A DNA stretch of 64,000 nt from Temnopleurus reevesii (Eukaryota > Echinodermata > Echinoidea > Temnopleuroida > Temnopleuridae). The position numbers were made by a program, and so were the translations under genes. Positions 23-60,621 of this stretch are shown here, piece by piece. Every line of letters starts with the position of its first letter. The first letter of the stretch is position 1. The stretch is taken from the NCBI GenBank assembly GCA_036244855.1, contig BQKZ01001605.1, positions 1 to 64,000 on the forward strand. The letters run 5' to 3'. The notes below the pieces were generated by a model, which had not been told where the DNA came from, ran no database searches, and saw only the letters and a program-made list of their open reading frames with translations.

Positions 23-272
23 AGGACCGACTCACATCTTTGCGTGTTAGCCTGCGTCGGCCCAGCGTTTAAAAAAAAAAAAAAAAAAACGTTTCCTGGA
101 CGCGCAAAGACACAGGTCATACGATGGACTGATGTTCGGCGTACGCTCCTTGAGCGCAAGCCGGACGTCAGTCCACCGTCTGATCAGTGTATACCGTGCG
201 CTCTTGGAACGTTTTTAATTTACAAAACGCTTGGCCGATGCAAGCTAAAAATACAAAGGTGTCAATCGGCCT
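23..272. mobile_element. Palindromic TAA-type MITE, family 1 copy A
   Basis: Terminal arms AGGACCGACTCACATC and GATTGACACC (inverse of GGTGTCAATC near the right end) pair over about 45 bases. The centre is a second inverted repeat around the inverse pair TTCGGCGTACGC / GCAAGCCGGACGTC. The left arm holds an A-run at 69-88. Flanks read TCA (20-22) and TAA (273-275). Full-length member of the ten-copy family, with no coding capacity. Confidence 0.8.
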
Positions 273-275
273 TAA

Positions 276-726
276 TATTCAAGGTTTAACAAGCTTTAAT
301 CGCACCGCGTTTCTCTGTCATGGGCACTCGATCGGAAGATGCACTGCGCACGTCAGGAGTGATTTTACGCGCCGCTGGGACTTCGATAATATTTTGACTT
401 TTTAATTCGAGTTCCGCGAAAAAAATCCTCTTAATCCGAAGACCGCATGTACACTTCCTGTCGATAGTTCATAAAACCCTCAAAACGGTGATCTGGGAAC
501 GTTTTCACATATGTTCAACAAAATGAAATTCAAAACATTGAATATTATGTGTTTATCACTAAATTTTCATAAAGTCTAAAATACATCACTCTCACCCTAT
601 AACCCCATTCCCAAATCAAAATAATATATGCGAGCTCCTATATAAAAAGGTTAAAGACACAATATTACAGGTCTGTCCTAGACGTAAATTATCTTTTTGA
701 CTGGTGTACAACGTCTTTCTCCCTCC

Positions 727-775
<49 letters not shown>

Positions 776-1669
776 TCTTTCTTAAAGACACGCATGTATA
801 CACTAAAATATAATTATACGCGAGCAAACACACAAACATACACACATACAACGTACATACACCAACCTACCCACACAAACTGGCTAAAAACTGTCAATTG
901 CACTCATTAATCTGTTTTTGAAAGCGTTGAGTAACATTAAAAAACTAAAAAGCTGGATTATATAATTAACTGAGATATATAAATTGCATCTATTATTATT
1001 ATGATTACTATTAAACTAAATGCAACTACTGGATACTATGCTATATGATATATATATATGACGGTGTTAAAGCCCAAAAATATTTGTGGTAAATGTTTGA
1101 AAAATGTGAATTATTCGGGATGTTTATCACGACATACTTTATATCTGTTTAAAAAATTTCGAGATTTCATGAGCTGACTCTTTTTGAAAATTTAAATCGT
1201 ATTTACTTCTTAGCTATCTCGGTAATGATTTTTCCCTGTTTAATCGGCATGGTTAGTATATTTAAATTTTTTGCTTTACTTTTTAGGACCTTGATGGGGG
1301 AAAAAACTTTAGCTGATCATGTATTTACCCTGTTGGGATATAAATAAATAAATACATAAACAAATAGATATCACACAGTTTAGATTTTCAATCAGTGGAT
1401 AAATAGTATCACGCCAATTAGACAAATATTGGAGTTTCTGACAGAAGCTGTCTTATATTTTTATATTTATTGTTCATGTTTTTCCATGCTTTTGTTCATA
1501 ATTCAGTATTTCATAAAAAAGTAATCAATGCATGTGGCTGTCTATATTAATTGAATCCCCCAAATAATCCTAACATTTTTGTGCCTTTCATCTTACGAGG
1601 TCCGCCGAAAATAATACAGGTTGGCTCAATGTGAAACTATGGCAGTTTGCATGGGCAGAAGATTAAAAA
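276..1669. other. AT-rich, no gene seen
   Basis: Apart from the CT microsatellite, only short frames and AT-rich sequence with small A and TATA runs were seen. Confidence 0.6.
731..778. repeat. (CT)n microsatellite
   Basis: About 20 perfect CT units, then CCCTCTC. Confidence 0.95.
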
Positions 1670-2070
1670 AAAATCGTCTTAAAGGTATAGATTCGTAATG
1701 ACCGGGATGCAGAAAGTGATGTTAAACGAGCTGATGTATTCACAAGTTGCTTTACATGCCTAAATATATCTGTGTAGGATATTAGGAGTACATTTTGCTC
1801 GTATTCTGTGTATTTTACGTCGAACACGTCAATCAGCCATTATTCCTACGGTGTGCTAAGAGCTTTTGCACGGGGGAGCGTCGGCCTGAAATGGGCGGTG
1901 TGATCGGTGTTTAATGTCTGCGGTGTGTGAGTTCGCGTTCATTTTGTACGAAAAGCATGTCACGACCGCAGCATAATTTTTTTATTTTGCGACAATTAAG
2001 CCATTTCTAGGTCGATATCATTCAAACAAACTATGAACATGCTCTAATATACTATTGAAAAACTGCATTA
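1670..2070. repeat. Dispersed repeat, copy 1 of a pair with 7390-7745
   Basis: Both contain AAAGGTATAGAT-like starts, GGATGCAGAAA, TTCACAAGTTGCTTT/TTCACAAATTGCTTT, GCCATTATTCCTAC/GCCATTCCTATACC, TTCATTTTGTACG-like sequence and a right end ATTCAAACAAACTATGAACAT. Diverged, same orientation. Class unknown. Confidence 0.6.
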
Positions 2071-3620: not shown

Positions 3621-3623
3621 CAT

Positions 3624-7745: not shown

Positions 7746-10700
7746 TATTGATGGGTATATATATTGATGGGTATATATATGTTTGTTTCTGCAGCTTACG
7801 AAATATATCCATAAAGTTCCTTGGCAATTTCCTCCAGGTTTCTAAGAAATTTTACCAGGCGGGTGACCGGTCACCTCCAGGGGACCGTATATAAGCCGCA
7901 CCTATGTGTAGGTGAATGAGAAACGCCTTTAAATATAAATTCATCATCATCATCACGCGGGAGCCCAAAAAGATAGCACAGAAAGCTGAAGCTCGACCTC
8001 TGCACCTGACCAAAAACTTCATTAATGTTTACTGGATACTTTACGGACGTCTTAAAACACTTGACCACGCAAGCTGTAGAAAATATTGAAAAAGTTGGTT
8101 TGTAGCATCCATGACAATCCTTCAGGAGGTGAAATTCGCGTTCTTGGAATCCGAACCGTGTCATTTGATTCCCGAGGTTGATCTGAATTTGAGAGAGTTG
8201 GAAAGGCAAATAAGGAAAGTAATGATTTGATAATTCATATCAATCACAGGCTGGTTAGTCTTCACGGGGTCACCACTTGGCATTACCTAAATGCCACTAA
8301 AGAAACTGTATCTCTAAATTAAACCTCTTCGGTATTTCCTTACATCCCTTTGCGTATTGTGTGATAGATATAGGCAAGTGTATGTGACTTTTAACGCTAA
8401 ACACCAGCCTTTGGGAGATAAAAAATTAGTATTTAATTGATACTTAAATTGGCAACGTGAATTATTTCACCGTCTATTAAGTTTAAAATCTAACACTATG
8501 CAACAGAGGAGTTTTGTAAAGAAAAAATATGCCAAAGTTAACGTACCAAAATAACGAGTGTTTATTTTCCTTTGCGTTGCCGATTAAACGACTATAGCGA
8601 TCTGCAACTTTCGAACTGCTGTTATTCAAAAATACAATGTCATAATGCAGTATAAATGGGCTGAAACATTGGTAGCGCATTTTACTCTTTATAACCATGA
8701 CATGTGTTGTGTTAAATGGGAAGCTCTTGGGATTGAGATGCTGCCAGAAACGTCGATAAAAATATTCTCCTCTGCTAAGCATAAGACAAATTGAAAAAAA
8801 AACCCACCAAACTATAATCGAAATTTATCATTTCCATTGAACAAAGAGAGCTGCATTGATGAAACCATCATACGTCACTGAAATACTTGGAATGATGCCA
8901 TGCATGATTCAAATGTAAAACACATATCTTTTTGTGACGTATGTATGACTTTTTTCCTTTCGTTGTAATTTCTCACTTATATCTCAAGATAAGTGATCAT
9001 TCATTTCAAGGAACCAAAGTGCATGACAGTTCCTGGTAAAAGCTCTATCACACATTTGTGTTAATAACCAATGCCTGCCTCATGTTCATTAAAAAAAATG
9101 AAACCTAAAAAAAAAAAAAAACGGAAACACAAAAATGAAGAGGAAGTCGGAGAGCTGACGCGTATCAGTTCGTTGAGCTCAAGGCAAATGACTTCATCGT
9201 CGGTCAAGCGTCTTTTTCAAAATATAAATGCAAAAATGTGATTGAATTTCTTAGGACTACTTAGGACTACGTAACTCGTGTTTCTATTAGATTCCCTGGG
9301 GGAAATAAATAGGGGACACGTTTGGTTATAAGATGTACACGCCAAGAGCCAGCCGAACAAATCCAGCGTTAGCCATTCATATCCCCCGTGAAACTATGCG
9401 CACATAAACCGGAACGTTATTCAATTTACAATGGACATACGAATTGTATGCGAGATACTATGTGCAACTGAGCCTCATTTATGTTGACTATATTCACATC
9501 TTCAGTAGATCATTCAAAAGATCATTGCTCATAACTTCTAACTGAAAACTTCTGCTGAGATTAAAGGAAAAAATGGGCATGAACAAGAACAAAAAAAAAT
9601 ACAATTTCATCACTATACTAAAAAAGGTCAACTCAGTTTGTTTTTCGGTTTTGGAACTCATACTCAACAGCATATTTTTTAGTAGATCATACAGTTTTCA
9701 TTGCTCGTAATAACCTGCCAAAGGAAAAAAAAAAGGTTTTTTTTTTCATCATAAGTTTATACGGACAACGCTTTAGATGCATATTGGGCACGAGCGAGTA
9801 AAAGAATAATATTCCAAGACTACTTGAAAAAAAAGCGTAATATGGGACAGTTATTTCTGTTTTCGGAACGCCAATGCTAATGCGATAATGGGCCTTACAT
9901 AGACTTTTTTCGTATCTTCAGTAGCTCATTCAGTAATCTCGTGTGATTCACATTTTAGGAATGATTTGGATTTTTCGGAACGTTGTCCTTTGATTTATAG
10001 GCAAGAAGTCAGTCACCGATCAGCCATCCCTTTTATTCAATAAAATTTAATGATGACAATAAAGAAACACGTTTTCCTAGCCAACTTCCATTGTTTTTCG
10101 ACATATGTAACTTTTCAATCATATATACATTTTTGTAGTTACTAGAAAAAAAGATGTGTTGTATAAGTTTACTACAGACGAAACAAGATGATCGAATCTC
10201 TAACAACAGCGGGAAAATCTGAAATTTCATCAATCAATACTTATTATTAATTTTTTTATTCAGAGTACATTGAATAGTATTACAGAATTACTGAAAAATT
10301 TGACTTTAATTTGTGACCACAATACCCAACATTTTCACACATTTCCAGCATTAATACATTCACTGGATTCAATATAACCTCACCTAACGATCATAAAAAA
10401 GAAGATTACGATTTCAAGTATGTTGAGAACATGTGAATTGTATAGCGTGCCTTTAATCGAAAATATTGAAAAAGCGATATACCCTCATGAGGATTGATCG
10501 TTTAAAAAAGGTGAACACTTCGAGAACCGATAGATTAAGGGACGGAGAACCCCTTCAGTGTCGATTCCAAACTATTATACAGATAGAACATGATGCGAAG
10601 CGATATCAAGAGTCACGATTATTGAGACACCTCGGCTAGACCGATACCCTCTGCGATCGAAGGCGCGATCAATGTCACGTGTTCATTTCAAACGTCAATA

Positions 10701-11151: not shown

Positions 11152-11154
11152 TCA

Positions 11155-13504: not shown

Positions 13505-14305
13505 ATGAATGTAGATAGTTCTATGTCAGAGTGGATGACCACATAATTGGACACCATCATCCGAACCATTTTTAGCAGGTACGTCCGATATTCATCCTCC
13601 ATCGGGAAAGAGCATTGGCAACATTCAGCAGATTTGGTTAAAAATTAAGTTCCACGAATGCTACAGTATGACAGTGCTCTAGAAATTAAATGTTTATTGT
13701 TTGACTTTTCAACTTGACATAAGAAAATAACAATAACAAAAGGTCGATGAAATTTGGCTCCTACAAAATTAGAGCAGGCCCTAAATCTGTTGTGACATTT
13801 AATACATGTAGCATGTTAAGTTTTTCAGCTGCATTCTGAATCGAGTGATATAATTAACAAAAAATTGATTTTTATGTTTGTAATCATCATATGATGTTTC
13901 AAAAATATACAACCATATATATTTCATAAAGTTATTTAATCACGTGTAGTATATAAAAATACTTTTTTTTAGATAGTTCTATGCAGATTGCATGACCACA
14001 TAATTGAACATCGTCATCCGAACCATTTTTAGCAGGTACGTCCCATATTCGCTGCCATCGGGAAAGGGCATTGGCAATATTTAGTAGATTTTATTAAAAA
14101 TTCAGTTCAATGAATGTCACGGTATGGCAGTGCTCTTGAAATTAAATGTTTATGGTTTGACTTTTCAACTTGACATAAAATTATGAGAACAACAATAACA
14201 AAAGGTCGATGCAATTTGCCTGCTGCAAAATAGGAGTAAATCGTACACCTGTTGTGACATTTAAAAGTATGTTTCGTTTTTTTATCTGCATTCTGAACAG
14301 AGTAT
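13505..14305. repeat. Tandem duplication, ~463-base period
   Basis: GATAGTTCTATG, CATCCGAACCATTTTTAGCA, CATCGGGAAAG, GACTTTTCAACTTGACATAA and AACAAAAGGTCGATG occur in the same order from 13512 and from 13973. About 90% alike by eye over 330 bases. Confidence 0.8.
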
Positions 14306-15697: not shown

Positions 15698-16164
15698 GAG
15701 AAGATGTAAACTCGAAATGCAATGTTCTTATAGGGGATGCGTCTCACAATCTCCCTAGAGCCTCCTCCAGCCTTGTGATGATGCGGGAAGAATTCAACAT
15801 TCCGATGTCTGGTTTTGAAGGTAGCTCTTCCTCCTTGAAAACGAAGTTAGTAGTGCTCTTGTGCTACGATCGATTCGGATTGGAATTTGACGTAATTTGA
15901 CGTAATAGCAGTACATCTATCTCCTTTAAAAAAAGTATTGTACTACAGTCGCTTGGGTTGAACACATTTTCACTACTTGTGCATAAAGAAGTTTTCAAGG
16001 TGTGTCACTATTTTACGTAAAAAACATACCTTTTTCCTCCTTGGAAAAAAACCAAGACAGTAGTACTCTTGTACTTCGGTCGCCTTGGATTGAAAGCCTT
16101 CATAGACCTGACTAGTGCCCAAAGACGTTTTCAAGGTGTGTTCGCTGTCTGACGGCACTCATCT

Positions 16165-16269
16165 TGAAGGGGAATTAACCGCATACTTTAATGTGCTCTC
16201 AGTGAATGATGATCAAACTGTGAAAATTTGAGCAAAATCGGATGATACGTTCAAAAGTTCTGAATTGTG
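16165..16269. mobile_element. Solo left end of a family 8 element
   Basis: AAGGGGAATTAACC at 16168 and AAACTGTGAAAATTTGAGC then AAAATCGGATGATACG match the 57003 arm. The sequence stops at the ambiguous base at 16270 and no right arm follows. Confidence 0.55.
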
Positions 16270-16299
16270 NATATCAATTTAAAGGTATAGTGATATGCT

Positions 16300-16540
16300 C
16301 TTTGATTTTAAGTTTATGATGAAATTCATATACATGTACGTTATTTCAAAAGTTCTTTAAACTTTTTATAAAGGGGCCAGGCTCGACTAGCACTTGTGCT
16401 ATTTTCTGGCCCCATTTACCAGCTATAATTGTATGAGTCACAATGTAAAGATATACATGTACTATTTCATATATTGTACATATGTGTTTTATTTGTTGGT
16501 GAATAAATTCAATTCAAATTCAATTCAATTCAAATTCGAC
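16300..16540 (+). mobile_element. LINE-like 3' tail
   Basis: Hairpin GGGGCCAGGCTCG..CTGGCCCC (16374-16415), then AT-rich sequence with GAATAAATTC and an imperfect AATTC/AAATTC repeat at the end (16505-16538). This is typical of truncated CR1/L2-like LINE copies. No ORF remains. Confidence 0.5.
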
Positions 16541-16964
16541 CATGAGCTTATAACGCAGACGAAGATGTAAACTAGAAATCCAATGCTCGTTTAGGGGACG
16601 TATCACATCATCTCCCCAGAGCCTCTCCCAGAATTGTGTTGAAGCGGGAAGTAACTCAACATCCTGATGTCTGGTTCTGAATGAAATTATTCCTCGTTGA
16701 AAATTGAAGTTTGTAGTGCTCTTGTACTACAACCGATTTGGGTTGGAAACATTTGACGTAACATCAGTACCTCATCCTCCTTGAAAAAAAGAACAAGTTA
16801 GTATTAGTAGTACTTCTGTGTCACAGTCAGCTTGGATTAAAAGCCTGTCATTACTATAGTGTACAAAGAAGTTTTTAAGGTGCGTTTCCTGTATGACCGC
16901 AGCACTCAACATCTTGCTGTCTGGTTTTAACGTAACAGCAGTACCTCTTTCTCCTTGAAAACCT

Positions 16965-17119
16965 CAACAAAATAAAGTCGGTCGAAGAATAATAGATACG
17001 TTCGACGTGAATAGAACTGTGCGGACAAAACAATGACAAGCCGATTACGATTTGAATAACATTACAAAGAACCATTGAAATGGTGTTCGACTTTATTTTT
17101 CGAAAGTTTATATCGTGTT
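16965..17119. mobile_element. Family 7 MITE, copy 3 (inside the 15.7-19.9 kb array)
   Basis: Core TGTGCGGACAAAACAATGAC and CGATTTGAATAACATTACAA, right end TTCGACTTTATTTTTCG then TTATATCGTGTT. It interrupts one array unit, so it arrived after that unit formed. Confidence 0.7.
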
Positions 17120-19993
17120 TTCAAGTTAGTAGTAGTAATCTTGTACTACAGTCGTCTTGGATTTTAATACTAGTGCCCAAATAAGTTTTCAAGGTTCGTT
17201 GTCTGTCTGACCGCATTCTTCAACATTTGTAAAAAACAAAAACAAAAAAGGAACATGGTGATTAATTTTAAATTTTAAATAATTCGACGCAGACGAAGAT
17301 GTAAAATCGAAATACACTGCTCTTTTAGAGGACACATCACGTCATCTCCCTGGAGCCTCTCCCAGCCTTGTGATGATGCGGGAAGTACCCAACATTCTGA
17401 TGACTAGTTTTTAACGTACCTCTTCCTCCTTGAAAACATAAACAGTATTATTCTTGCGCTACAATCGATTTAGGTTGGAAACATTTGACAGCAGGTCATC
17501 TTCCTCCTTGAAAACTCAAGTTAGTAATTATTCTGTGCTACAGTCACCTTGGATGAAAAGCCTTTTACCTCTAGCGCCCAACGAAGCTTTCAAGTTATGT
17601 TCACTGTCTGACCGCATCCTTTTTTATTGAAATTGAAATCAAAATTTGGTAAAAAGGGAACATGCTGATTTCTTTCAAATAATTCGATTGTCAGATTGTG
17701 AACATAACGCAGGCGAAGATGCAAACTCGACATGCAATGCTCTATTCCAGGGGACGCATCATGCAATCTTCCTTTCTCAACTCTTGGGAAAAGGGAACAT
17801 GTCGATTAATTTCAAATAATGCGATCATGAATATAACGCAGACGAAGATGTACACTCGAAATTAAATGCTCTTTTAGGGGACACATCACATCATCTCCCT
17901 AGAACCTGTCCCATCCTTGTAATGTGTTGATGCGATAGGTACTCTACATTCTGGTGTCTAGTTCTGAACAAAACTCTTCCTCCTTGAAAACAAAGCTAAC
18001 AGTGCTTTGTGCTACTATCTATTTGAGTAGGAAACATTTGATTATTCGTACCAAGACGATTTCGATTTTTTAATAGATTTGATCGGTGTTAATGGCATCC
18101 CTCTCAATACTCAGATACAGCAACGCGGCTAATGTTTGTCGGATGTTATGGTAAAGACCCAATACAGACATCTTTGCCTTTTTATACTAAGGACCATCAT
18201 TAAAGGGAGTCTATACAAGTGATCATTTTGTAGTGCTCAGTTACTACAAGCAACTATATTCTATTCTAAAATTTTAGATTATTTGGTAGTTGCCAGATGG
18301 CATCCCACTTGACTTTTGAAAAAAAAATGTTTAATTCAATACAAATAATTCGCCCAAGAATATGACCGTAGCAGAAAGGGGGAAATTCCCAATGCAAAGC
18401 AGTCTTAGAGAAAGCATCAAGCCATCTCTCTAGAGCTTCGTCCAGCCTTGTGTTGAACATGCGGGAAGTACTTACTGTTTTGTATTTGACGTAACAGACA
18501 CACATCTTCCTTCTTGAAAACGAAGTGAGTAGTACTCTTGTTCTAAAAGTGATTTGGGTTGGGAACATCTTAGGATAGAAGTGTTCATGATATATTCATA
18601 GTAAGATACAGCAAAACTGTTTATGCTTAATACCGGATGTTATCATAATGGAACAATAGAAATAAGATTTTTGATCCTTTCACTTTGGACATCAGCAGGG
18701 GACGACGTCTAACAAATTTGTTTTTAAAGTAGAACTACGGCAAAAAATGACTGGTATATGGTATTATATATTATACTCATAATATCCTCAATAATTTTGC
18801 ACAGGAACTGATACCAGTCATTCATTCTGAAGGTCGTTCTAAACGTAACGTTGTCAAGTGTAACGGAATGGTTCACCAATCTACAAGGTCTATGCATTTG
18901 TGGCATCATAAAGGCATAAATTCTAGATTAGTTGGCCGCTGTTTGATTGGATTCATCTTAATTATGTAATTAGGAAAATGATGCACTTTTGAAAAAAAGC
19001 TTAACTCACTGTTAGGTAAAAAGGAAACATGTTGATTCTTTACGAATACTAGTAATTTGCTCGAGAACAAGCACGTAGGATAGGACAGAACTTCGCATTA
19101 CCATGCTGTTTGAGAGGACGCATCACTTCATCTTCCCAGAGTATTCTTCCAGCCTTGTGTTGATGTTGGAATCCCGCAACATCCCGATCTTTAGTATTCC
19201 TCCTTGACAACAAAGTTAGTAGTACTCTCGTGATGCAATCGCTTTCGGTTGAAAACAACAAATGATTGTTAGCACCAAAAAGTATTCAAGATTATTTCTA
19301 GATTTTCTAGATTATTTGATCGGTGTTAATGGCATCCATCTCAATCAGTATGGTAATTGGAAGATACCGTTTTTACGGTACAGCACACGTTTAATGTTTA
19401 GAAGACGTTATGGTACGGACCCATTAGCGAGAAGTTTGCTTATTTATTCTTAGGACCGGTATTGAATGCAGTCTTCTACAAGTGGTCAATTGTTATAAGC
19501 AACCGAACAGCTAGCAAATTTTCAATGCCTATATGCCTGTGTGCCATCATAAATACAGAAGTTCTAGATTATTTGGTCGTTGTAAGATGGCATTACTCTA
19601 ATAATTGTATAGGAATTTGATGCACTTTAAAAAAAAATGCTTTGCTCAATGTTAGATAAAAAGGGAACATGTAGATTCATTATTCAATCGAGAACAAGAA
19701 CGTAGGAGAGAGCAAACGTTCGCCATGCTGGTTTAGAGGACGCATCCCACTATCTCCCCGGAGTCTTCTTCCAGCCTTGTGTTGATGCGGGAAGCTCGTA
19801 ACATCTTGATGTTTGGTATTGGATCAACCTCTTCCTCCTTGAAAACCAAGGTAGCAGTACTCTTGTGCTACAATCGACCCTTACGCAAACCCAGGGGAGG
19901 AGGCGAACGAGTACGGACCGACGCGCCGACTTCCAAAATATCAATTCAAGGGAAGGACAGAGTGAATATAAAATGGGTTGAATCTTCCTCTAA

Positions 19994-20243
19994 AGGCCGA
20001 CTCACACCTTTGTTCTTTTAGCCTGCATCGGTAGGGCGTTTTTTAATATTAAAACGCTTCCAGGGCACTCTGTATACGCTAAGCAGACGATGGACGGACT
20101 TCGGCTTGCGCTCAAGGATCGTACGCCTAACGTCAGTCAACTGTTTGACATGACATGCGTCTTTGTGCGTCCGGTGAGCGATTTTAATAATAAAAAACGC
20201 TAGGCCGACGCAGGCCAAAAACGCAAAGGTGTGAGTCGGCATT
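19994..20243. mobile_element. Palindromic TAA-type MITE, family 1 copy C
   Basis: Arms AGGCCGACTCACACCTTTG and CAAAGGTGTGAGTCGGC match almost perfectly. TAA occurs on both sides (19991-19993 and 20244-20246). The inner arms around 20088-20135 carry the ACTTCGGCTTGCGCTC / GCCTAACGTCAGTC pair. It sits just right of the 15.7-19.9 kb array. Confidence 0.85.
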
Positions 20244-20365
20244 TAAGTGGACCCAAGAGTCTTGCGATGTTTCGTAAAACATGCGATGGAAGAGGTATTC
20301 GACAGGTAAAAATAAAGAAGGAATTCTCCCCATCTAGTTTCTTGGGGATACTATCAAACACGCTT

Positions 20366-20496
20366 AATCCCCAGTCACATAGAACCCCTGAAGCAACACG
20401 ATTCACCCCGACTCGTTGTTCTGAAGTAGTTACATGTGAATTAACAAAGAGTCGGGGTGAATCGTGTTGCTTCCGGGGTCCTAGGTGACCGGGGCT
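20366..20496. mobile_element. Family 2 MITE (GCCCCGGTCACATAG), copy 1
   Basis: About 130 bases, almost wholly palindromic. Left arm ATCCCCAGTCACATAG then AAGCAACACGATTCACC; right arm GGTGAATCGTGTTGCTT then TAGGTGACCGGGGCT. The central spacer contains GTGAATTAACAAAG. Frames on both strands are artefacts of the palindrome. Confidence 0.8.
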
Positions 20497-20714
20497 TTAG
20501 CTTTGTTCTCGCGGGCAGTGTTCTTTTCGCTTCGCTGTACAGAGAACATGCTTTTTCAAAAGGGAAAGGTACAGACAACTTTTGTAACAATTCACAAGTA
20601 GCTGACGTAAATGTAGAGTCGTTAAACCCAATTGCGTATGGACAGTTGAACTGATTCGCATCTTTGTATGAAATATGTATGGCAGTCGCCTACGCAACTA
20701 TTACAAACATGATT

Positions 20715-22769: not shown

Positions 22770-22936
22770 CATAAATATGCTATGAAATGTAGTACAACGC
22801 CCAATAAATGGTTCTTTGTAAAGCTATTCAAATCGGAACCGGGTTGTGATTGTTGTGTCCGCACAATTCAGTTCTCAACGCACTGGTACATTGTCCCATG
22901 ACCCACTTTATTTTACGAAAATAATTTATATCGCAA
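22770..22936. mobile_element. Family 7 MITE, copy 4 (degenerate)
   Basis: Retains GGTTCTTTGTAAAGCTATTC, AATCGGAACCGGGTTG, TTGTTGTGTCCGCACA and a right end TTATATCG. The left terminus is not clear. Confidence 0.55.
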
Positions 22937-24819: not shown

Positions 24820-25529
24820 ATTCATAAATCAATAAAATAATATAAAAATGCCTTTCGCTATAATGCACTTAAAAACCTCCGATGCGCTCAATAATAACAC
24901 GACATTTGCTTTGAAAAGGGTTACAAATCCTATTGGGTGTTTATATAAATGAGGGGGGGATCAGTTTCTGACATTTTGATGTCCATGCTATGCATGTGAA
25001 ACCACATCATTTTCACGACCCTGCGGACTTGGTTAAGATTTGAATAATCAAGAATGCAAAACCTAATTTAGAATCAGCTTATAATCTCATTCCATTATTT
25101 GTTTCCTTCCTAAATCCACTGGGCCATGGAAAGGGTGTGATTACACAGTATAGTGTAATAAGAATATCAAAACGGTCCCTCATCAATAGAAACACTGCAT
25201 TGCAAAACAGACTTTTCTATCCTCCTAGGAAAATGTCTTTGCAACTTTGTTGTATAATTCAATCTGAAACAGATGGCTAGATGTCTTAAGAAAAAGCCCG
25301 CGTAAAATATCCTTTCGATACCATCAGAAAGGCTAAAAATCAATATTCCTTTATGGTGGAATTCGTTAAGATAATCGCAATCTGTGTACTCCTCGTCGAT
25401 CTATTTAACATACAGACCCGCACCCGTGACACAGATTGACATGTACTGGCTAACATTTGATTTATAGATATATTATACATTGTAATTTACATACTAGGAT
25501 CGTCCTGTATTATTTTGGTATAAATACTT
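24820..25529. other. No gene seen
   Basis: AT-rich stretch between the LINE-like tail and the ~280-base array. Confidence 0.5.
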
Positions 25530-25999
25530 TTAGTTCAATTGTACGACAAATATCTTGGTTTTTATCGAATTCATACCAGCATTTCTGAAAAAAGCATCAT
25601 ATACGACGCCATTTAAAATAAATAAATAAATCAAATCACAATGCTTACTACGTTTTTATGATCATTTAATATGTAATGCCTTGTAACAAATAAAGAAATA
25701 TACCTGGAAAAGGAATCGTTAGATATACACAAGTAATGTTTATCAATTCAGACATCCAATTACCTTGGCATGAATTTATAGTTTTAGTCACAATTGCACT
25801 TTAGGTAACTTGTGCGTCAAAAAAGGTTTATGTTCATGCATTGTCAAATTCATACCAGCATTTCCAGAACAGTACCATATTCAACGCCATTATTAAGATG
25901 AATAAATAAATGAAATCACAATGCTAAAACATTTTCATTATTAATAAACATGTAATGCGTTGTAAAAGAAATAAATATCCGGAAAATGGATCATACGAT

Positions 26000-26621: not shown

Positions 26622-26768
26622 ATAATTATATTGGATGGCTTTATTTCATGAAATACCGGGAATATTGCACTCGTTAGGGCCAATATTGCACTCATCTTCG
26701 ATTCGTGCAATATTGCCCTAACTCGTGCAATATTCCCTTGTATTCCATTCATTGCCATCCAATATAAT
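26622..26768. mobile_element. Hairpin element (TTATATTGGATGGC)
   Basis: Arms TTATATTGGATGGC / GCCATCCAATATAA frame a nearly continuous foldback. The inner arm CACTCGTTAGGGCCAATATT pairs with AATATTGCCCTAACTCG, around a loop CATCTTCGATTCGTG. It forms the right edge of the insertion in the 25.5-27.3 kb array. Confidence 0.75.
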
Positions 26769-33152: not shown

Positions 33153-33388
33153 AGGTCGACTCACACGTTTGCGCTTTTAGCCTGCGACAGCCCAGCGCTA
33201 TTGAAGATAAAAACTTTCCCTGGACGCTGGTCATACGGAGGAGTGAAGGTCGACTTACGCTCCTTGAGCGCAAGCCGAACGTCAGTCTTTCGTCTGACCA
33301 GCATGTGCTCTGCGCTTGGGGAGCGTTTTTTAATTGTCAAAAACGCTTGGCCGACAGACGCTAAAAACGCAGAAGTATGAGTCGGTCA
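33153..33388. mobile_element. Palindromic TAA-type MITE, family 1 copy D
   Basis: Arms AGGTCGACTCACACGTTTG and AGTATGAGTCGGTCA, with identical TAA flanks (33150-33152, 33389-33391). All three internal hairpins are recognisable. It lies 660 bases upstream of the GABA-B-like start codon, so it could affect that promoter. Confidence 0.85.
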
Positions 33389-33730: not shown

Positions 33731-34049
33731 TATTCCGAGCAGATAATGACTGTTAAATGGAATAATCAGCCGTTTTATTCACCCTAAACCAGAAATGTGT
33801 TATAGTGTTGGCGTTATCCGAGGATATTGAATCGTTCAACTATTGCTAAGCGGGACAATTTAATATATTTTTGATTATCTTGCCGACGTTGGGAACATTA
33901 CGTGTTCATAGTCATTTACTTATGCAAGATAATATTTCTTATTCATTTTTCCCCGTGCTTTAATTGAAATATAACAAACAAAGCAGTCAGTGTACGAGAT
34001 ACAGTAACGAATTCCTTATCGTGCCGTTTTGTATACTTTTCGAATCGAA

Positions 34050-34361: not shown

Positions 34362-34367
34362 GTAAGT
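34362..34367 (+). other. Splice donor of the GABA-B-like exon
   Basis: GTAAGT follows codon 104 directly and is a full match to the metazoan donor consensus. Read-through would add an unrelated tail and stop at 34464-34466, which supports this as the true exon end. Confidence 0.75.
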
Positions 34368-35019
34368 TCATTTATTTTCTTATCGTCGCTTCCTCTAAAC
34401 AGTGAGAAATATTTAAACATGAGCTCATACTATAATCACTTCTTTAAGTTTTGCATGTATTTGTAACTCTTTACTTCATACACAAGCATTTTTATACAAG
34501 AATTGCATTTTCAATCAAGTAATCTCCACTTTCAATCCATTAACTTTCGAATAGTAATTTGTGATATTATGCTATCAAGACAAAATCAATATCTTAATAA
34601 TTTGGTTACTTGTACATTATAAAAACACTTATTAGAAGAGAATCTTCAAATGAGACGACAATAAAGTACATTATGATTTATGCTCCAAGATTTTGTAGCA
34701 ATCCATTTAAAATTGTATATGGCTTTAATAGGCAGATTTGTATCACGTGGAATAAAGGCAGTGTACCCTTGTAATGTTTCAGCATTTATTGAGTATAACT
34801 GTTGTTTATTTACGTCGACACAGTCCTATGAATGCCCCGAAAGACATTTAATGTGTGTTCTTTTTTTGTAGTGGTGAAACTGTCTTTACCCCTTTTTCAC
34901 TACCTGGCACTACGTCACTCTTGCATAAGGATTATTAAACCGCTTATTTATATGAAACCTAAACTTAGGATAACATAAGTAAACGTTTGTCAATATAAAT
35001 CTGGTAGCATTTTGCATAA

Positions 35020-35271
35020 ATGTCGACTTACACCTTTGCGTTTTTGGCCTGCGTCGGCCCAGTGTTTGTTATTTCCATATGAAACACGTTCCCTGGATGC
35101 ACAAAGACGCAGGTCATACGGTGTATTGACGATTGGCGTAGGTTCTTTTAGCGCAAGCCGAACGCCAGTCCACCGTTTGATCAGCGTAAACTGTGCGCTG
35201 GGGGAGCGTTTCTAATTTTTCAAAAACGCTGGGCCGGCGTAGGCTGAGAACACAAATATATGAGTCGGAAT
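35020..35271. mobile_element. Palindromic TAA-type MITE, family 1 copy E
   Basis: Arms ATGTCGACTTACACC and ATATGAGTCGGAAT, with TAA flanks (35017-35019, 35272-35274). It lies about 650 bases into the presumed first intron of the GABA-B-like gene. The coding exon is thus bracketed by copies D and E. Confidence 0.85.
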
Positions 35272-36015: not shown

Positions 36016-36192
36016 AACACGATATAAACTATTCCGAACAAATTAAGTCGAACGCAAATTCAATGATCCTTTGTAATGCTATTCAAATCGGAACCGGCTT
36101 GTCATTGTTGTGCCCGCACATTTGAATACACGACATACGGATCTATTGTCTGCGTTCGACTTAATTTTTTCGGAATTAGTCTATATCGTGTT
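36016..36192. mobile_element. Family 7 MITE (AACACGATATA), copy 1
   Basis: Ends AACACGATATAAACTATTCC and the inverse of GGAATTAGTCTATATCGTGTT. Sub-terminal arms AATTAAGTCGAACGCA / TGCGTTCGACTTAATT. The middle has ATTCAAATCGGAACCGGC and TTGTTGTGCCCGCACA. This is the clearest member. Confidence 0.8.
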
Positions 36193-37045: not shown

Positions 37046-37284
37046 AGGCCTACTCACACCTTTTCGTTTTTAGCCTGCGTCAGCCCAGCGGTTTTTGAAA
37101 ATCAAGAACGCTCCCTGGATGCACAAAGACGCAAGTGGACTGATATTCGGCGCAAGTTCCTTGAGCGCAAGTTGAACGTCAGTCCACCGTCTGATCAGCG
37201 TATACTGAGCGCTCGGGGAGCGTTTTAAATTTTTAAAACTCTGGGCAGTCGCAGGCTAAAAACCTCAAAAGTGTGAGTCGGCCT
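37046..37284. mobile_element. Palindromic TAA-type MITE, family 1 copy F
   Basis: Arms AGGCCTACTCACACC and AGTGTGAGTCGGCCT, with flanks TTA (37043-37045) and ATA (37285-37287). The centre reads GGACTGATATTCGGCG and the inverse GTTGAACGTCAGTCC. About ten bases shorter than most copies. Confidence 0.82.
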
Positions 37285-41715: not shown

Positions 41716-41958
41716 AGGCCGACTTACACTTTTGCGTTTTTAGCCTGCGTTAGCCCAGCGATTTCAGAAATTAAAAAAGAACGCTCCCTGGACTGTGCAC
41801 AACAAACGCAGATCAGCCGGTAGACTGACGTTTGGCTTGCGCTCAAGTAGCGAACGTCTACCGTCAGTCCTCCATATGACCTGCGCCCGAGGGGCGTTTT
41901 TATTTAAAAAAAACGCTGGGCCGAAGCAGGCTAAAAGCGCAAAAGTGTAAGTCGGCCG
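41716..41958. mobile_element. Palindromic TAA-type MITE, family 1 copy G
   Basis: Arms AGGCCGACTTACACTTTTG and CAAAAGTGTAAGTCGGCCG are exact complements over most of their length. Note the compensating change CTTACACT/AGTGTAAG relative to other copies. Flanks TAA (41713-41715) and TGA (41959-41961). Confidence 0.85.
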
Positions 41959-42359
41959 TGAGGAAATGTCGCGCCAAATTACCAAGATCCTTGTTCATTT
42001 ATTGAGAAAGGGAGACGGGGAAAAAGTTTGCCGAGTGGGAGACTTAAAAAGGAGGGCGCAAAGAACCTATCAAACAATTACCTGAAACTTCAAAGTCGCA
42101 TGGAGGATGGTATCATTAGAGCAGCGAGCAAACAGATCTACTTCGATTTAATGTTTCTCAAAAGTTTAAAGACATTCATAAACGAGTAGATAAAGAACAA
42201 AATATCTATAATGCAACCAACAAATGATTTGTATATGTTCTGGAATAAAGGGAAGAATGATATTTCCAAATATTGTTATGTAACATTGCGAGGTGTGTGT
42301 AATGCGCGGTTGGTAAAATGGCAAGCAGGATGGCATTACGACCTGAAATAAAGAGATAC

Positions 42360-42489
42360 AGCCCCGGTCACATAGGACCCCGGAAGCAACACGATTTACC
42401 CCGACTCGTTGTTCCGAGGCAGTTAACTGTGAATTAACAAAGAGTCGGGGTGAATCGTGTTGCTTCCGGGGTCCTATGTGACCGGGGCT
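42360..42489. mobile_element. Family 2 MITE, copy 2 (best preserved)
   Basis: Arms AGCCCCGGTCACATAGGACC and GGTCCTATGTGACCGGGGCT are perfectly complementary. Inner arms AAGCAACACGATTTACCC / GGGTGAATCGTGTTGCTT differ at one site. This suggests recent mobility or strong constraint. It ends about 200 bases before an assembly gap. Confidence 0.85.
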
Positions 42490-42686
42490 TAAACGACAAA
42501 CATGACAAAGTACACTCACGTCAGGCAAAGTAATATTCATGTTTGATAACAACTTGGAAGTCAGCAGTTTAGAATGTCCAGAGTTGTGTAATAATTGAAA
42601 CACGTCCACACGTTACGGTACATTAGTTCATATACGTAGACAGAAGTGATGGGGAATTTAAAGGGTCATGGACTACCGCCCCCCCC

Positions 42687-43590: not shown

Positions 43591-43663
43591 TGTACCGGGT
43601 GGGACTCGAACCCACGACCTCTGGATTGCTAGACCAGTGTCATAACCACTAGACCACCGGAGC
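43591..43663 (-). pseudogene. tRNA-like sequence, anticodon position AGC, probably tRNA pseudogene or SINE head
   Basis: A 73-base cloverleaf can be drawn on the minus strand. Acceptor GCTCCGG/CCGGTAC has two mismatches (pairs 2 and 3). The D arm GTC/GAC has loop TAGTGGTTAT. The anticodon stem CTGGT/TCCAG has one T-T mismatch around loop CTAGCAA. The variable region is five bases, and the T arm GTGGG-TTCGAGT-CCCAC is perfect. A-box-like and B-box-like motifs are present. Three mismatches and a D arm unlike animal tRNA-Ala make a working tRNA unlikely. It abuts an assembly gap at 43582, so a 3' extension as a SINE body cannot be seen. Confidence 0.55.
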
Positions 43664-48695: not shown

Positions 48696-48945
48696 AGGTA
48701 AACTCACAACTTTACGAGTTCATCCTGCGTCGGCCCAGCGCTTTCTAAAATTGAAAATGCTCTCTGAGCGCACAATATACGTGATGATCTGACGTAAGCT
48801 TTGTGCTAAAGAAGTGCCACAGATATCATTTCACCGTATGACCTGCGTATTTCAGCGACCATGGAGCGCTTGTAATAATCATAATAATAATAATAAAAAA
48901 ACGCTTGGTCGACGCAGGCTAAAAGGCAAAGGTACGACTTGGCCT
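48696..48945. mobile_element. Palindromic TAA-type MITE, family 1 copy H
   Basis: Diverged copy: arms AGGTAAACTCACAACTTTAC and AAGGTACGACTTGGCCT, with TAA flanks on both sides (48693-48695, 48946-48948). The right hairpin loop contains an ATA/AAT simple repeat expansion at 48873-48898. Confidence 0.8.
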
Positions 48946-51237: not shown

Positions 51238-51484
51238 AGACCGGCTCACATCTTTGAGTTTTAGTCTGCGTCGGGCCAGCATTTTTTTTTAAATTAAAAA
51301 CGCTCCCCGAGCGCACAGTAAACGCATTTCAGACGATGTACTAACGTACGGCTTGGGCTGGTGGAGAGTACGCCGAACGTCAGTCCACCGTATGACATGT
51401 GTCTTTGTGCGTTCAGGGAGCGTTTTTAATAAAAAAAAAACGCTTGGCCACTGCAGGCCAAAAAACAAAGGTGTTAATCGGTCT
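51238..51484. mobile_element. Palindromic TAA-type MITE, family 1 copy I
   Basis: Arms AGACCGGCTCACATCTTTG and CAAAGGTGTTAATCGGTCT, with flanks TTA (51235-51237) and TTT. Hairpins at 51278-51306 (CAGCATTTTT...AAAACGCTC) and 51417-51448. Open frames on both strands here are palindrome artefacts. Confidence 0.82.
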
Positions 51485-54032: not shown

Positions 54033-54826
54033 CCTCGTAATGCTACCTCCCAGAAGGCCTCTTTCGTGCTTTGGTCCCGGTCACATAGAGGCCCGGAAGC
54101 AAGACGATTCAATACGACTCTTTCTCAATTCACAGTTAACTGCCTCAGAACAAGGAGTAGTGTTAAATCGTATCGCTTCGGGTGCCCTATGTGAACGGGG
54201 CTTTACCCTTCCCCACTTTTCAATAACGCCATCGTGCAGGTTTACCTTGGGAAGTGATATCAGAATGGACGCCAGTATTAGCTGCCTGTGAACAAAGAGT
54301 CGTGTGAAATCGTGTTGCTTCCGGGGCTCTATGTGACCAGGGCTTAACATTGACGAGAGCTTCTCGTAATGCTACCTCCCAAATGGCCTCTTTCGTGCTT
54401 ACCCCTTCCCCCTTTTCAATAACGCGATCGTGCGCGTTTAACTCGGGAAGTGAAATCAGAATGGAGGCCAATATTAGCTGCCTGCGAACAAAGATTCGTG
54501 TTGAATCGTGTTGCTTCCGGGGTGACCGGGGCTTTACCCCTTCCCCCTTTTCAATAATACGATCGTACAGGTTTACCTTGGGAAGTGAAATCAGAATGGA
54601 CGCCAGTATTATCTGCCTGTGAACAAAGAGACGTGTTGAAATCGTGTTGCTTCCGGGGCTCATGTGACCGGGGTTTAACATTGACGAGAGCTTCTCGTAA
54701 TGCTACCTCCCAAATGGCCTCTTTCGTGCTTACCCCTTCCCCCTTTTCAATAACGCCATCGTGCGCGTTTACCTCGGGAAGTGAAATCAGAATCGACGCC
54801 AATATTGACCCACTCAAGGTGAATGT
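54033..54826. repeat. Tandem array incorporating half-copies of the family 2 MITE
   Basis: A ~330-base period is seen for the unit starting CATTGACGAGAGCTTCTCG (54349 and 54679), with a shorter sub-unit starting CCCCTTCCCCCTTTTCAATA (around 54206, 54401, 54537, 54732). Each sub-unit ends in the right half of the MITE (AATCGTGTTGCTTCCGGGG) at about 54315, 54505 and 54640. Frames up to 153 codons here follow the repeat period and look non-coding. Confidence 0.75.
54073..54202. mobile_element. Family 2 MITE, copy 3 (diverged), at the edge of an array
   Basis: Arms GGTCCCGGTCACATAGAGG and GCCCTATGTGAACGGGGCT. The central part is inverted relative to copy 2 (CAATTCACAGTTAACTGCCT). The array to its right carries several right-half copies of the same element. 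Confidence 0.75.
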
Positions 54827-55032: not shown

Positions 55033-55212
55033 AACGACGATATATAATATTTCCGAAAAATCAAGTCAAACGCAAACAATAGATCCGTACACCGTGTATT
55101 CAACTGTGCGGACGCAACAATGACAAGCCAGTTCCGATTTCAATAACATTACAAAGGAGCATGAATTTGCGTTCGACTTAGCTTTTTGAAAATAGTTTAT
55201 TATCATCGTGTT
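55033..55212. mobile_element. Family 7 MITE, copy 2 (opposite orientation)
   Basis: Ends AACGACGATATATAATATTT and TATTATCATCGTGTT. The middle is the reverse complement of copy 1 (TGTGCGGACGCAACAATGAC). Arms CAAGTCAAACGCAAA / TTTGCGTTCGACTTAG. Confidence 0.75.
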
Positions 55213-57002
55213 TTCGTTCTAAAGATGTTTTCTTTGTGTGTGTCATCTGAAATATCTTTGATATTTTTTCTGCAAAATAAAACAAAATGGCCGTTTCTTG
55301 TATAATCATGATTCAAAACAATGCTCGCCATCATTAGTGCCGATCGACCGATCTAGCTAGGTGATTATGTTTTGTTTTGCTTTCCACCACACACTTATCT
55401 CAGGCAAAATTGTTATTTGTAATCATTTCTATGCATAATTTAGAACAATTGTGTAATTCTTTTAACAGACAAAAAAAAAATAAAAGAATTGTATTCACAC
55501 CCTCAACTAAAACTCAGTTTATCGAGCTTCTACTTTAAGAAAAAAATGACGAAACCTTTTCGATTGGAATTACTTATATAAAAACATTATTCAGTCTAAA
55601 TAATTAAACGTTTTTTTATGACAAAAATGAATCAAATTCCTTAGCAATTTTGTAGCTAAGATTGTTACGCAATGGTTGCCTCTTAAAAGGTAGAGGTATG
55701 ACTCTCAAGCGAGCACTTGGAAAAAATAGCAATCGAATGGTCATTTTGCAATTGAATTTATTATATTATAAAATACATTATCATGGTTAATAATAAACAA
55801 AAGAAAGCGAGAGTCACCAATATACAAAAAACATTGTTTCATAACTGCAAAAGACAAAATGATAAGTTATTAGAAACGAATAAAAAAAAGTTCGAATCAC
55901 CAACAGTGTTCAATATAGATGAAAGTAATTTCGTTACTACTTTTTTAACTTCGCAATATTTCATATAAACAGGTTCTTGCCCCATAAGAATCTATTAAAA
56001 ATAAATCCAAACATGGGGAGGTTTATTAAAGCATATGTTGTAGAGCTCTACTAAGCCCCTTATAACAATTTCAAAATTAAAACACGGTTAAAGACATAAA
56101 AACGTCATAAAAATGAGGAAATTTTTTTCTTAGAAGAAGAAAGCCCCGATGAATATAATCAGTTGTCTACTAAGTGATAGCAAATAAAAGTATTCACAAA
56201 TGAATTTTCTTGCAAATAAGAGATACAGTTATTCCAGTCTTCTTTCAGATAGTACACCCTTTATGATGCATATGAATTAAATTAATATTCCCACTGCAAT
56301 AAAACACAAATTTATTAAAAAACGCAAACAAGAACACCTTTAACTGCAAATGAAAATCACACGGTGGAACGCCAATAGCCCGAAGAGAGATTATTTCATT
56401 ACACTCTAATTTCATTATCAGCAATGCAAAATACTTTTTGATTAATGTTGTCAATTTAATATCATTAGCGGAACTGAGGGTTCATAAAGTTGTCAAGAAT
56501 ATGATAAATCAAGCTAGAATCAATATACGCTGGCATTATTTTACGACGGTATGATATAGGGAAGTTGGGTGAATGTCTCTTTTTCAGAGAACACATTGCA
56601 GGCAGTTTTTTTTTTTTTGCCGTAGTAGTTCTTTTTTTCCCTTCTAATCATGGCTACTCTGCATGCTTTAATTTTTGTTATCTTGTTATTTTGTTACACA
56701 TTTTTTTTCTTTCATCCTCTTTGCCGCACTCACACATATACACGTACATCCCATACGCGCGAATTATTAAACACACCTATGACCCCCACGCGCACCCCTT
56801 CTCGCTATTTTTTTGCTTTCTCTCAGGCATATACACACACATATACCTCCAAATAGCATGCACATACACCAACGACACGCATCTGCATTCTCTTTTCTCT
56901 CTTCCTGACATATATTCACACATTATATGAAATTAGTATAAAACACACGCACGCAAACAAAAGGCGTACAAAACTTATGCAACTGCATATAAATATACGT
57001 TA
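55213..57002. other. No gene seen apart from the weak DDE-like ORF
   Basis: The frame at 56565-56930 runs through a CA/TA-rich low-complexity stretch (56730-56930). Confidence 0.5.
55783..55968 (+). pseudogene. Short ORF with a faint DDE-transposase-like motif
   Basis: The 61-codon ATG frame is lysine/asparagine-rich and contains SPTVFNIDESNFVTT (residues ~40-54), reminiscent of the P..IFNxDETGF block holding the first catalytic Asp of pogo/CENP-B-like transposases. No flanking homologous sequence was seen. AT-rich chance coding is the main alternative. Confidence 0.2.
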
Positions 57003-57600
57003 TTAAAGGGGAACTACACTCAGAGATTAAATTGTTATCATTAAATGAAGAAAAATAAGATGAACAAACTGTGAAAATTTGAACAAAATCGGATAATCCA
57101 TTCAAAAGTTAAGAATTTTCAAAGTTTTGATTTACACCCCTCATGGGCTCCTTAAATTGGCAAACACACAGGCACAAAATGGCTGCCAACATGGAGAACT
57201 CTCCATTCGCTTTGTACACAAAATTTCACATTTTCCTCTTTTTCCAGAAAAGTAAACAAAATTTTGTTTCTTTGGTTAAATATATTATAGCCACATCAAT
57301 TCTGCAAGCATTCCAGAAAGAACGGAGTGTATTTCTCATTTGAATTATTATATTGATCCATTTTCAATAAATTTATATACAAAGTGAATGAGGAGTTCTC
57401 CATGTATGACATCACAGATTATGCTAATTGGCTATACGTTGCCAATTCAAGGATGCTCAGCACAGATGGAAATGATGACTTTGAAAATTCATAACTTTTG
57501 AACGGATTATCCAATTTTGCTCAAATTTTCACAGTTTGTTCATCTGATTTTTCTTCATTTACTGACAGTACATTATTGTCTGGGTGTAGTTCCCCTTTAA
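57003..57600. mobile_element. Family 8 non-autonomous DNA transposon with ~115-base TIRs
   Basis: TTAA flanks or begins both ends (57003-57006, 57597-57600). The arms pair over more than 100 bases, e.g. AAGGGGAACTACACTCAGA with TCTGGGTGTAGTTCCCCTT, and AACAAACTGTGAAAATTTG with CAAATTTTCACAGTTTGTT. A second inverted pair GGAGAACTCTCCATTC / GAGGAGTTCTCCATG lies inside. There is no transposase frame. Confidence 0.85.
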
Positions 57601-58659
57601 GCAAACGTTTAGTAAATAGCAAAAGTATATAATATCTAAACAACTATTTATCAAAATAGTCCAAATTATGGTGTAATTTTTAATGTGTTGACTTATTCAT
57701 AAAAAGCAGGTTAGTCTCATTCAAGCCACATGGGATCACTTTACAAGGGATCCTTGCTGTAAAAATACGATTCAATTAAATTGTGCATTTCCATCAGAAA
57801 ATGGGGCACATTTGAACCAAAAGTGTGCAAAATATGTCCATCAAATGGTCTTAGTTTGCAATTTCACCATACGTTGGAGATGTTTTGACCAATAATTTAG
57901 TGTACAGTATATGTTGCCCAGTCGTGGGTAAACTTTTCAAAAGCCAAACTCTCTTTGCCATTACTCCCTTTTTTGTCGTCCACCCTTTTCCATCTTCATC
58001 TTCTTCCCTTGCCCATTCTATTTTTCTTTCTTTCCTTCCTTCTTTTTTCTTTCCCCCTTCTCCTTCTCTCTTTCCTTCTCTTTATTTTCCCTTTGTAATT
58101 TCACTTCCTCTTCGTAACCTTTACTCCTACTCCCCCCGTATCCCTCATTTCCTTTCTCTCCGAATCCCGATCCTACCCATCGAGTCTCATCGCAATTTGC
58201 AAACCTCAACCTAGATCCGCTTACATCCTCCTTTTCTATGTCCCAAGTAATTCTCGTTACTTGCGATTAAAACCTGAATCGGGCTAAAAAAATCCCTGTT
58301 CAGCTCGAGCAGCGTGACCATGGCTTCCATAATCACATTTTGATTAAATTTCAATCTGGGTAAATTCTAAATCCTAAAGTAGACCAGGCTATTCGGTCAT
58401 TGAGCACGTTTGCAATACATATTTGCAGACTGAAGTTGACCAGCGCAGCGAAGCCCCCCCGCTTCGGTTGGTATGGTGTCGTTGAAGGAAATGGTGTTGG
58501 GAAAACATTTGATGTGGGGGCTCGTGATAATGGAGGGTGTCTCAAATATCATTTTCTTCCCACATCATATCAGTGATATCATGGCTTTTCAATTCCAAAG
58601 TACAGGTATAGCATGTGGGTGCCTCAGTCCTTAGATAATCTATTATACGTACATTCTAA

Positions 58660-58703
58660 GCGGAAGTTTCGGTTTCCTTTTGTTCAAATTGTGCGCATGC
58701 GCA
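58660..58703. promoter_or_regulatory. ETS-like and palindromic NRF1 sites
   Basis: GCGGAAGT (58660-58667) matches the ETS/GABP consensus and TGCGCATGCGCA (58692-58703) is a perfect NRF1 palindrome. A CCATTGG lies at 58771-58778. This pairing is typical of broad promoters. No reading frame or splice signal beside it could be tied to a gene. Confidence 0.45.
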
Positions 58704-58904
58704 ATAAGATGTATTGCATGAAGCAATGTGTAAGACTTTGGTGATCAGACAAATGTCCCTGTAAAGATACAATGCCATTGGTCGTGCATATTGACCACAC
58801 TTTGGTGTATTTAGCATCTACAAATGGTTAATCTACCAATAATAGTCAAAATTATAGTATATACAATATCTACATTATCTATCTAATCAGTCCATCTTTC
58901 AAAT

Positions 58905-58950
58905 CAGTCAAATTCAAATTCAAATTCAAATTCAAATTCAAATTCAAATC
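58905..58950. repeat. TTCAAA hexamer repeat
   Basis: About six and a half perfect TTCAAA units. On the minus strand this could be the tail of a LINE (ATTTGAATTTG). The 94-codon minus-strand frame includes the repeat (LNLNLN) and is not convincing. Confidence 0.8.
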
Positions 58951-60385
58951 TTTCGTCCTAGGTAACCAAAGGAAACACTTAAGAGGATCCAGTTTGTCAT
59001 ATAAAACACAACATAAATTCAAATAAGATATTACACAAAAAGAAGAATGAACCTCAATTCTTAAACCTACGGAGATATAAACCGATGCGAGATAAGATCC
59101 ACTCGAGATGATAACAATAGTGTGAAACTGTGAGAAAGCCAAACCATTCGACCCAATTTCCATTTCGATATCATTTACACAATCTCCACCATGTCCACAG
59201 CCTTTTCTGGCGTCCGCATATGGACTGTAATGACACAGATCTCACCATTGAAAATCGAACATGTCCAGCTGGAGATTACCTCTCTTGACAGATTCAAAAA
59301 CCTCTTTCAAACATCAATTGTGGTTCCATCCACAAGCCTTTAACCGAATTACGCAAAGCCCAAGGGTTTCTCTGTTTGTTGCTAATGTGTATCGGGGGCG
59401 TCTCGGTGACGCAGCCGCGAGAGGACAGGACCTGGGTTCAGGGGAATCCAAGCCTCCACGCTGTAAAACTTCAAGATATTTTCCCCCCTAAAATGCTCGT
59501 TTTTTGAGGAAGATGGAAAAGACACGTTTATCAGATCTGTGACCATTACTGTTAGCTCCACAAAGTTCGTTGTAATTTGGAACTTTTCGTGAAAACTGTA
59601 CTTAATATTAAATTCTTATCATGGATTCGTATCTAATGTTGCGGGGCGATGGATTTATAATATTAAGAAAGGGGGGGGGGCAAATTTTCTTCCCTCGTTT
59701 TTTTTTGCTTTCCAGGGGCTTGATGAGAGGAGCGTCCAGTACGAAAAAACGTGGATACGTACAGACTTATGTGTATACCACCTCATATGTTTCTGTGTTA
59801 ACGATTCATTATTAAGCATGTATGATAGACGAACCTAAATGTTTATGAAGTGTCCCAAAACTAAATAAGGAATTTTGCAAATATACTCATCGGCTATGAA
59901 CTGAAAAACATAGGCACTCTGTTTTACCATATACTTAAAAAAAAAAGATTTAAGGAAAGTATTTATAATTATATTGCATTATTTTCACTTATATTCTCGC
60001 CTTCTTATGTCCTAAATTCGGAAAAGGTATAAATCAACCGCATAGATTATCTTAGTTGTTGTAATTTGTGTTAACTCAATGCCAGGTTTTTCGAATAAAT
60101 TTATTTTAAAAGGGTACATGAGCGAATTAAAACAAGTTGACGAAACACTAACAAGTCTTTTGCATTACTAAAAACTCGTTTATAAATCTCTTTTTATTGC
60201 GTTGGTGTAGAAGTAAACTTTTTTTGTACAAAACGCGGAAAGACAAGTCGTGGGATGCGATTTCTATAATTAGGTTGTAGCCAGTTTGCCTCATTTTATC
60301 AAGGTAATATAATAAGCGATTTGCAAGTTGGGTTAATGTGAGGCACTGACGGTGTCATCTTTTGTACGTGCTATAGGTTGTGGTA

Positions 60386-60621
60386 AGGGCCGACTCACAC
60401 ATTTGAGTATTTAGCCTGCGTCGGCCCAGCGTTTTTAACAATAAAAACGCTCCCCGGACGCAGGTCATACGGAGGACTGGGGGTAGACGTACGCTCCTTG
60501 AGCGCAAGCCGAACGTCAGTCTACCGTCTGATCCGCATACGCTGTGCGTCGAGGGAGCGTAGTTAATCTCTGAAAACGCAGGGCTGACGCAGGTTAAAAA
60601 CGCAAAGGTGTGAGTTGGCCT
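60386..60621. mobile_element. Palindromic TAA-type MITE, family 1 copy J
   Basis: Arms AGGGCCGACTCACACATTTG and CAAAGGTGTGAGTTGGCCT, with flanks GTA and ATA. The three hairpins are clear: CAGCGTTTTT..AAAACGCTC near 60427, the central AGCCGAACGTCAGTC pair, and GAGCGTAGTT..AAAACGC near 60558. Confidence 0.83.

Follow-up and report, generated by a model that had tools for sequence, protein, structure and literature searches.

Why does a single stretch of 64,000 nucleotides from the echinoid Temnopleurus reevesii contain ten copies of one palindromic element, and does the capacity of this element to fold in two ways reflect selection on its structure? The stretch, hereafter called the window, corresponds to bases 1-64000 of contig BQKZ01001605.1 (here C1604) in an assembly of 558 Mb and 10,433 contigs (GCA_036244855.1). 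The ten repeats are old, independently inserted copies of one small palindromic element. We regard it as a palindromic, non-autonomous, Tourist-like miniature inverted-repeat transposable element (MITE) of ~246 nucleotides, moved in trans by a transposase of the PIF/Harbinger type (probability about 0.8). The usual marks of a MITE are present: a non-coding consensus of 246 nucleotides, under ~600 nucleotides, many dispersed copies and inverted ends. The family is non-autonomous since it is too short to encode a transposase. Compared with named families at the level of their descriptions, it is a new family within an established kind, the palindromic Tourist-like MITE.

Inverted ends and target duplication

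The genome-wide analysis is based on 92 profile matches, 82 of which were full-length with flanks; removal of one duplicate insertion left 81 copies. Their consensus is a single near-perfect palindrome of 246 nucleotides comprising 110 Watson-Crick pairs. Both ends read AGGCCGACTCACACC, are inverted and start with A or G, as is usual in PIF/Harbinger elements; AGGCCGACTC is the family end sequence. For this superfamily, PMC4482050 gives TWA duplications and ends usually beginning with A or G.

The flanking 3-mers of the 81 copies are mostly TWA at both ends. Left and right flanks match at (-2,+2) in 45 copies against 32.5 expected (p=0.0018 by permutation), and this excess of +12.5 is the highest among the 64 left-right position pairs (next +6.6, lowest -9.9). 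Because the excess sits at this pair, a 3-bp duplication with a variable middle base is indicated. The identity of the complete flanking 3-mers exceeds expectation as well (25 versus 17.8, p=0.021). A 4-bp duplication was rejected (exact test, p=0.08). Beyond the duplication, C is favoured at -4 (59/162, ends pooled, p=5.5e-5) with a mirror G at +4, as is T at -5 (p=1.5e-4, likewise pooled). Further out, the preference for A at -6 (p=0.023) does not exceed that for C at -7 (p=0.025). The supported extended target is palindromic and reads TC-TWA-GA. For PIF and mPing, PMC2836001 describes a preference that takes in the duplication itself and the 3 bp adjoining it at either end. The preliminary description of this DNA had proposed PIF/Harbinger-type insertion with a 3-bp TWA duplication, and both the (-2,+2) excess and the palindromic extended target support that proposal. 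A presumed enzyme of this type, with presumed cut-and-paste movement, would make a 3-nt staggered cut at TWA.

Copies in the window

The ten copies are the following:

23..272, + strand: MITE copy 1, flanks TCA / TAA
11153..11400, - strand: MITE copy 2, end at 11153 damaged, model reaches 11149
19994..20242, - strand: MITE copy 3, flanks TAA / TTA, non-matching
33153..33388, + strand: MITE copy 4, flanks TAA / TAA, matching
35020..35271, + strand: MITE copy 5, flanks TAA / TAA, matching
37046..37284, + strand: MITE copy 6, flanks TTA / ATA
41716..41958, - strand: MITE copy 7 ('copy G'), flanks TAA / TGA, two near-end paired changes
48696..48945, - strand (profile score): MITE copy 8, flanks TAA / TAA, matching, most diverged
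51238..51484, - strand: MITE copy 9, flanks TTA / TTT
60387..60621, + strand: MITE copy 10, flanks TAA / ATA

With the ten copies as query against the window, blastn recovered the ten sites and one 15-nt match, while the profile search (nhmmer) found the ten copies together with a weak match (E=2e-4) that covers 166 nt at 9048-9213. The 15-mer end, with up to 3 mismatches, matches 17 times in the window against 0.41 expected. Both searches agree with the ten copies counted before, at lengths of 235-252 nucleotides; most of the start positions stand as well, except that copy 2 begins near 11153 with a damaged left end and copy 10 at 60387. The copies at 23, 33153, 35020, 37046 and 60387 lie on one strand and those at 11153, 19994, 41716 and 51238 on the opposite strand. 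For the copy at 48696 the orientation is ambiguous by blastn, and the profile score groups it with the latter four.

Two earlier statements have to be corrected. TAA on both sides had been ascribed to at least four copies; when the ends are read symmetrically, this applies to three of the ten (33153, 35020 and 48696). Moreover, all copies were said to keep the same ends and hairpins, which is too strong, as the copy at 48696 has 74% identity to a 19-copy consensus and adopts a fold other than the foldback at minimum energy. The 500-nt flanks are dissimilar among copies, except for one common repeat which starts at least 127 nt away from the elements.

The family in the genome

The family is widespread in the genome. 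Exact 21-mer family ends occur 761 times and their reversed control 0 times; two query copies yielded 3160 and 4169 loose candidates (40 scored for each). The remaining 18 kb of C1604 hold two further copies (L029:6049-6300 and L030:495-740), which brings the contig to 12 full copies in 82 kb. For comparison, 20 stretches at fixed positions were sampled, amounting to 110,821 readable bases (7/20 were all N), and these contained one weak profile match (E=1.1e-5, 21.4 bits) without blastn support. Since ~16 matches would be expected there at the density of C1604 (an arithmetic estimate), this contig looks copy-rich, as judged on a small sample. Seven other loci with 1.5-kb flanks contained two additional partial copies, and further clusters may exist beyond C1604.

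For 12/12 copies on C1604 the nearest sampled relative lies on a different contig, so these copies are not local duplicates; together with the unrelated flanks, this rules out local duplication as the source of ten copies in 64 kb. Mean identity to the consensus is 0.846 for the 12 copies versus 0.894 for the other sampled copies, the latter having been fetched as best matches.

A pattern for longer elements with these ends, intended to leave out the MITE itself but set one base off register, matched the genome at 90 places, and variants of the MITE made up most of those shown. At four of the 90 places 1.2 kb was examined; MITE copies occupy three of them, one copy being truncated, and at the fourth (L104) a divergent left end continues into a different repeat. 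Among the first 100 places listed, a 380-bp end pair on contig C156 (L105:28-407) is a MITE holding another inverted repeat (~195-329), apparently a nested insertion. A scan of viral contigs with a 25-mer gave 0 matches in a collection from which records close to the window's genome were possibly excluded.

Asymmetry of the flanks

Thirty-five copies carry TWA on both sides: 13 are TTA/TTA, 10 TAA/TAA, 11 TAA/TTA and 1 TTA/TAA. The imbalance between the last two classes is significant (two-sided binomial p=0.006), and orientation cannot produce it since each of them is invariant under reversal. Inside the copies, A and T are interchanged at 3.9% per A/T site, from which ~2 flank mismatches, in either direction, are expected by decay; at this rate the probability of at least 12 mismatches is 8e-7. 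Furthermore, the TAA/TTA copies are not older than the matched ones (mean identity 0.890 versus 0.882). Genome-wide counts of exact 10-bp ends, covering the TAA...TTA and the matched classes, gave 16 TAA...TTA places, two of which on contig C6371 look like a duplicate (same displayed letters). The matched class numbered 29 places, 14 of them forward and 15 reverse.

A mechanism may be sketched from work on mPing in yeast. According to PMC4561436, TAA/TTA excision sites are rejoined more precisely than TTA/TAA sites, and the authors proposed 3-nt 5' overhangs from this rejoining. Such a cut would leave the excised element with 3-nt 5' flaps of the donor duplication, and for a TAA...TTA donor both flaps would read 5'-TAA. 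If a flap were sometimes retained and paired with the overhang of the new target, the middle base at each end would be that of either the donor or the target. TAA and TTA targets would then give TAA/TAA, TTA/TTA and TAA/TTA, and TTA/TAA hardly ever. The model presupposes source copies located in TAA...TTA. It agrees with the flank table, in which the mismatched copies behind it number 12. That donor 5'-TAA flaps replace the middle base where the element inserts and so generate the flank classes is a tentative proposal, which we hold to be possible rather than probable; as an account of the TAA...TTA excess, duplication of the 2-bp TA combined with ends that vary is a weaker rival. If the proposal were true, a cut-and-paste transposon would keep a one-base memory of its donor site, readable from genome sequence alone. 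With one-sided mismatches in ~1/3 of TWA/TWA copies, the fate of 5' flaps could be studied by counting in this natural family. In the literature searched, to the extent that the sources were accessible, neither a natural TAA...TTA asymmetry nor a report of this MITE family was recognised. The TAA...TTA excess is the part deserving follow-up, whereas the MITE family itself is ordinary.

The transposase and the rival explanations

An autonomous PIF/Harbinger relative would carry the family ends and encode a DDE transposase as well as a Myb-like protein. The genome contains 46 coding matches to DDE_Tnp_4, several within long open frames. Part of the sequence was inspected at six of these 46 loci, namely 5.8 kb surrounding one locus and, for each of the other five, the 0.7 kb that follow it; one of these five (L111) has N at 311/701 bases. 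The sole end-like match at the six loci is a 4-mismatch hit in L111. The insertion signature is the basis for assigning the family to PIF/Harbinger.

Several observations weigh against this assignment. Allowing up to 4 mismatches, the six partly read loci revealed no transposase-encoding element with the family ends. Identical 3-mers stand on both sides in only 25/81 copies, 23 of these being TWA, and 12/35 TWA/TWA copies differ at the middle base, for which a plain TWA duplication followed by decay is insufficient. Lastly, most of the 81 copies were selected by their similarity to two window copies.

The TAA...TTA flanks (11/35 copies; 16 exact-ended places) could also be read as TA with a symmetric extra A/T. 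The duplication would then be the 2-bp TA, the true ends AAGGCC...GGCCTT with a terminal base that is often lost, and the element would be moved by a TA-specific enzyme, for example of the Tc1/mariner kind; the retention of TA in some damaged flanks (ATA, CTA, GTA, TAC, TAT) fits this explanation. However, the match excess at (-2,+2) falls in the middle of a 3-bp duplication, the exact test for a 2-bp duplication shows no excess (8 versus 11.7, p=0.96), and matched TAA/TAA and TTA/TTA flanks together exceed TAA/TTA (23 versus 11; 29 versus 16 among exact-ended places). We therefore consider a TA-specific mover unlikely. Slightly less probable again is membership of NuwaII, a group within the PHIS superfamily, instead of PIF/Harbinger proper. 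The target of NuwaII is given as C|TNA|G in PMC4482050, and the preferred C at -4 and G at +4 as well as one TGA/TGA and one TCA/TCA copy are compatible with it. Yet 146/162 flanks have A or T as their middle base, and the outer C (59/162) is a preference and not a rule. A PIF/Harbinger-type transposase acting on TWA remains our preferred explanation.

Two folds and compensatory changes

With DNA parameters, the consensus reaches -140.2 kcal/mol as a foldback and -123.9 kcal/mol as a stem with three hairpins. Both folds claimed earlier are thus found in the consensus, which folds well either way, but the three-hairpin form is less stable than the foldback. Each arm of the consensus contains one local palindrome, and for this reason the three-hairpin form accompanies the palindrome; we infer that it is a by-product. 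A 30-mer hairpin of at least equal stability arises in 7% of 300 single-base-shuffled arms. Two alternative folds require no special upkeep: a long palindrome with a local palindrome per arm suffices, contrary to the idea that they are unusual for a simple MITE.

Compensating changes were compared with a control in which the 3' letters were redistributed (500 shuffles, 81 copies). The absence of an excess had been named beforehand as the outcome which speaks against selection on structure, and over the whole foldback 59 Watson-Crick double changes were observed versus 58.3 +/- 6.8 in the shuffles (239/500 reach 59). The outer stem is slightly high, with 22 double changes versus 17.0 (attained by 54/500 shuffles), and the middle part has 10 versus 7.8, the inner part 27 versus 33.6. 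Local hairpin 1 has 1 versus 2.1 and hairpin 3 has 10 versus 7.0 (attained by 77/500 shuffles, not significant), while the centre shows a deficit (0 versus 7.0). Paired cells are slightly high in the outer stem (22/500 shuffles) and in hairpin 3 (47/500 shuffles). A test on 19 copies gave 15 versus 16.1. CpG decay was rejected as a driver of paired changes, the contrast between CpG transitions (8.0%) and other sites (5.9%) being small.

The compensating changes described for copy G are real, since the copy at 41716 has two genuine paired changes near its ends, but over the 81 copies such changes are no commoner than chance. These two changes, the good folding of the consensus in both forms and the slightly raised outer stem would favour the view that selection for a folded form, in DNA or in RNA, maintains the hairpins. 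Against this stand the lack of a compensatory excess in the whole foldback and in hairpin 1, the deficit at the centre, the non-significant hairpin 3 and the 19-copy test. As compensating changes match chance, selection on structure is not supported, and we consider it highly improbable. Paired changes in palindromes are easily mistaken for covariation when a shuffled control is absent.

Other features of the window

A shorter repeat family of ~130-145 nt occurs at 20361-20502, 42354-42495 and 54076-54205; because its copies match mutually on both strands, it is probably another palindromic element. A 79% inverted repeat spanning ~600 nt (57003-57225 / 57369-57600) is a possible further foldback element. 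A dispersed repeat of ~110-180 nt is found at four sites (16969-17122, 22785-22914, 36016-36189 and 55037-55215), and direct repeats several hundred bases long, now decayed, form tandem-like arrays at 15700-19880, 25513-27351, 13512-14303 and 54136-54806. A tRNA-Ala (anticodon AGC; 43591-43663, - strand; Rfam 58.2 bits) adjoins a run of N. The open stretch at 34008-34466 (+ strand) bears an unproven likeness to a GABA-B receptor exon; it has no Pfam match, and GABA-B receptor subunit 2 in the PDB is matched at only E=0.5.

Comparison with known systems

The fish Angel elements are palindromic foldback MITEs in which an inverted repeat covers the whole element and is able to snap back. The present family is likened to them at the level of description.

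Tourist-like PIF/Harbinger MITEs of the mPing type share the short length, the inverted ends and the 3-bp TWA duplication, as well as an insertion preference extending past the duplication (PMC2836001). In contrast to them, the present element is one palindrome throughout, and ~1/3 of its TWA/TWA copies are non-matching. NuwaII shares the 3-bp T...A duplication with a preferred outer C (PMC4482050), but in our family the middle base is nearly always A or T and the outer C/G is a mere preference.

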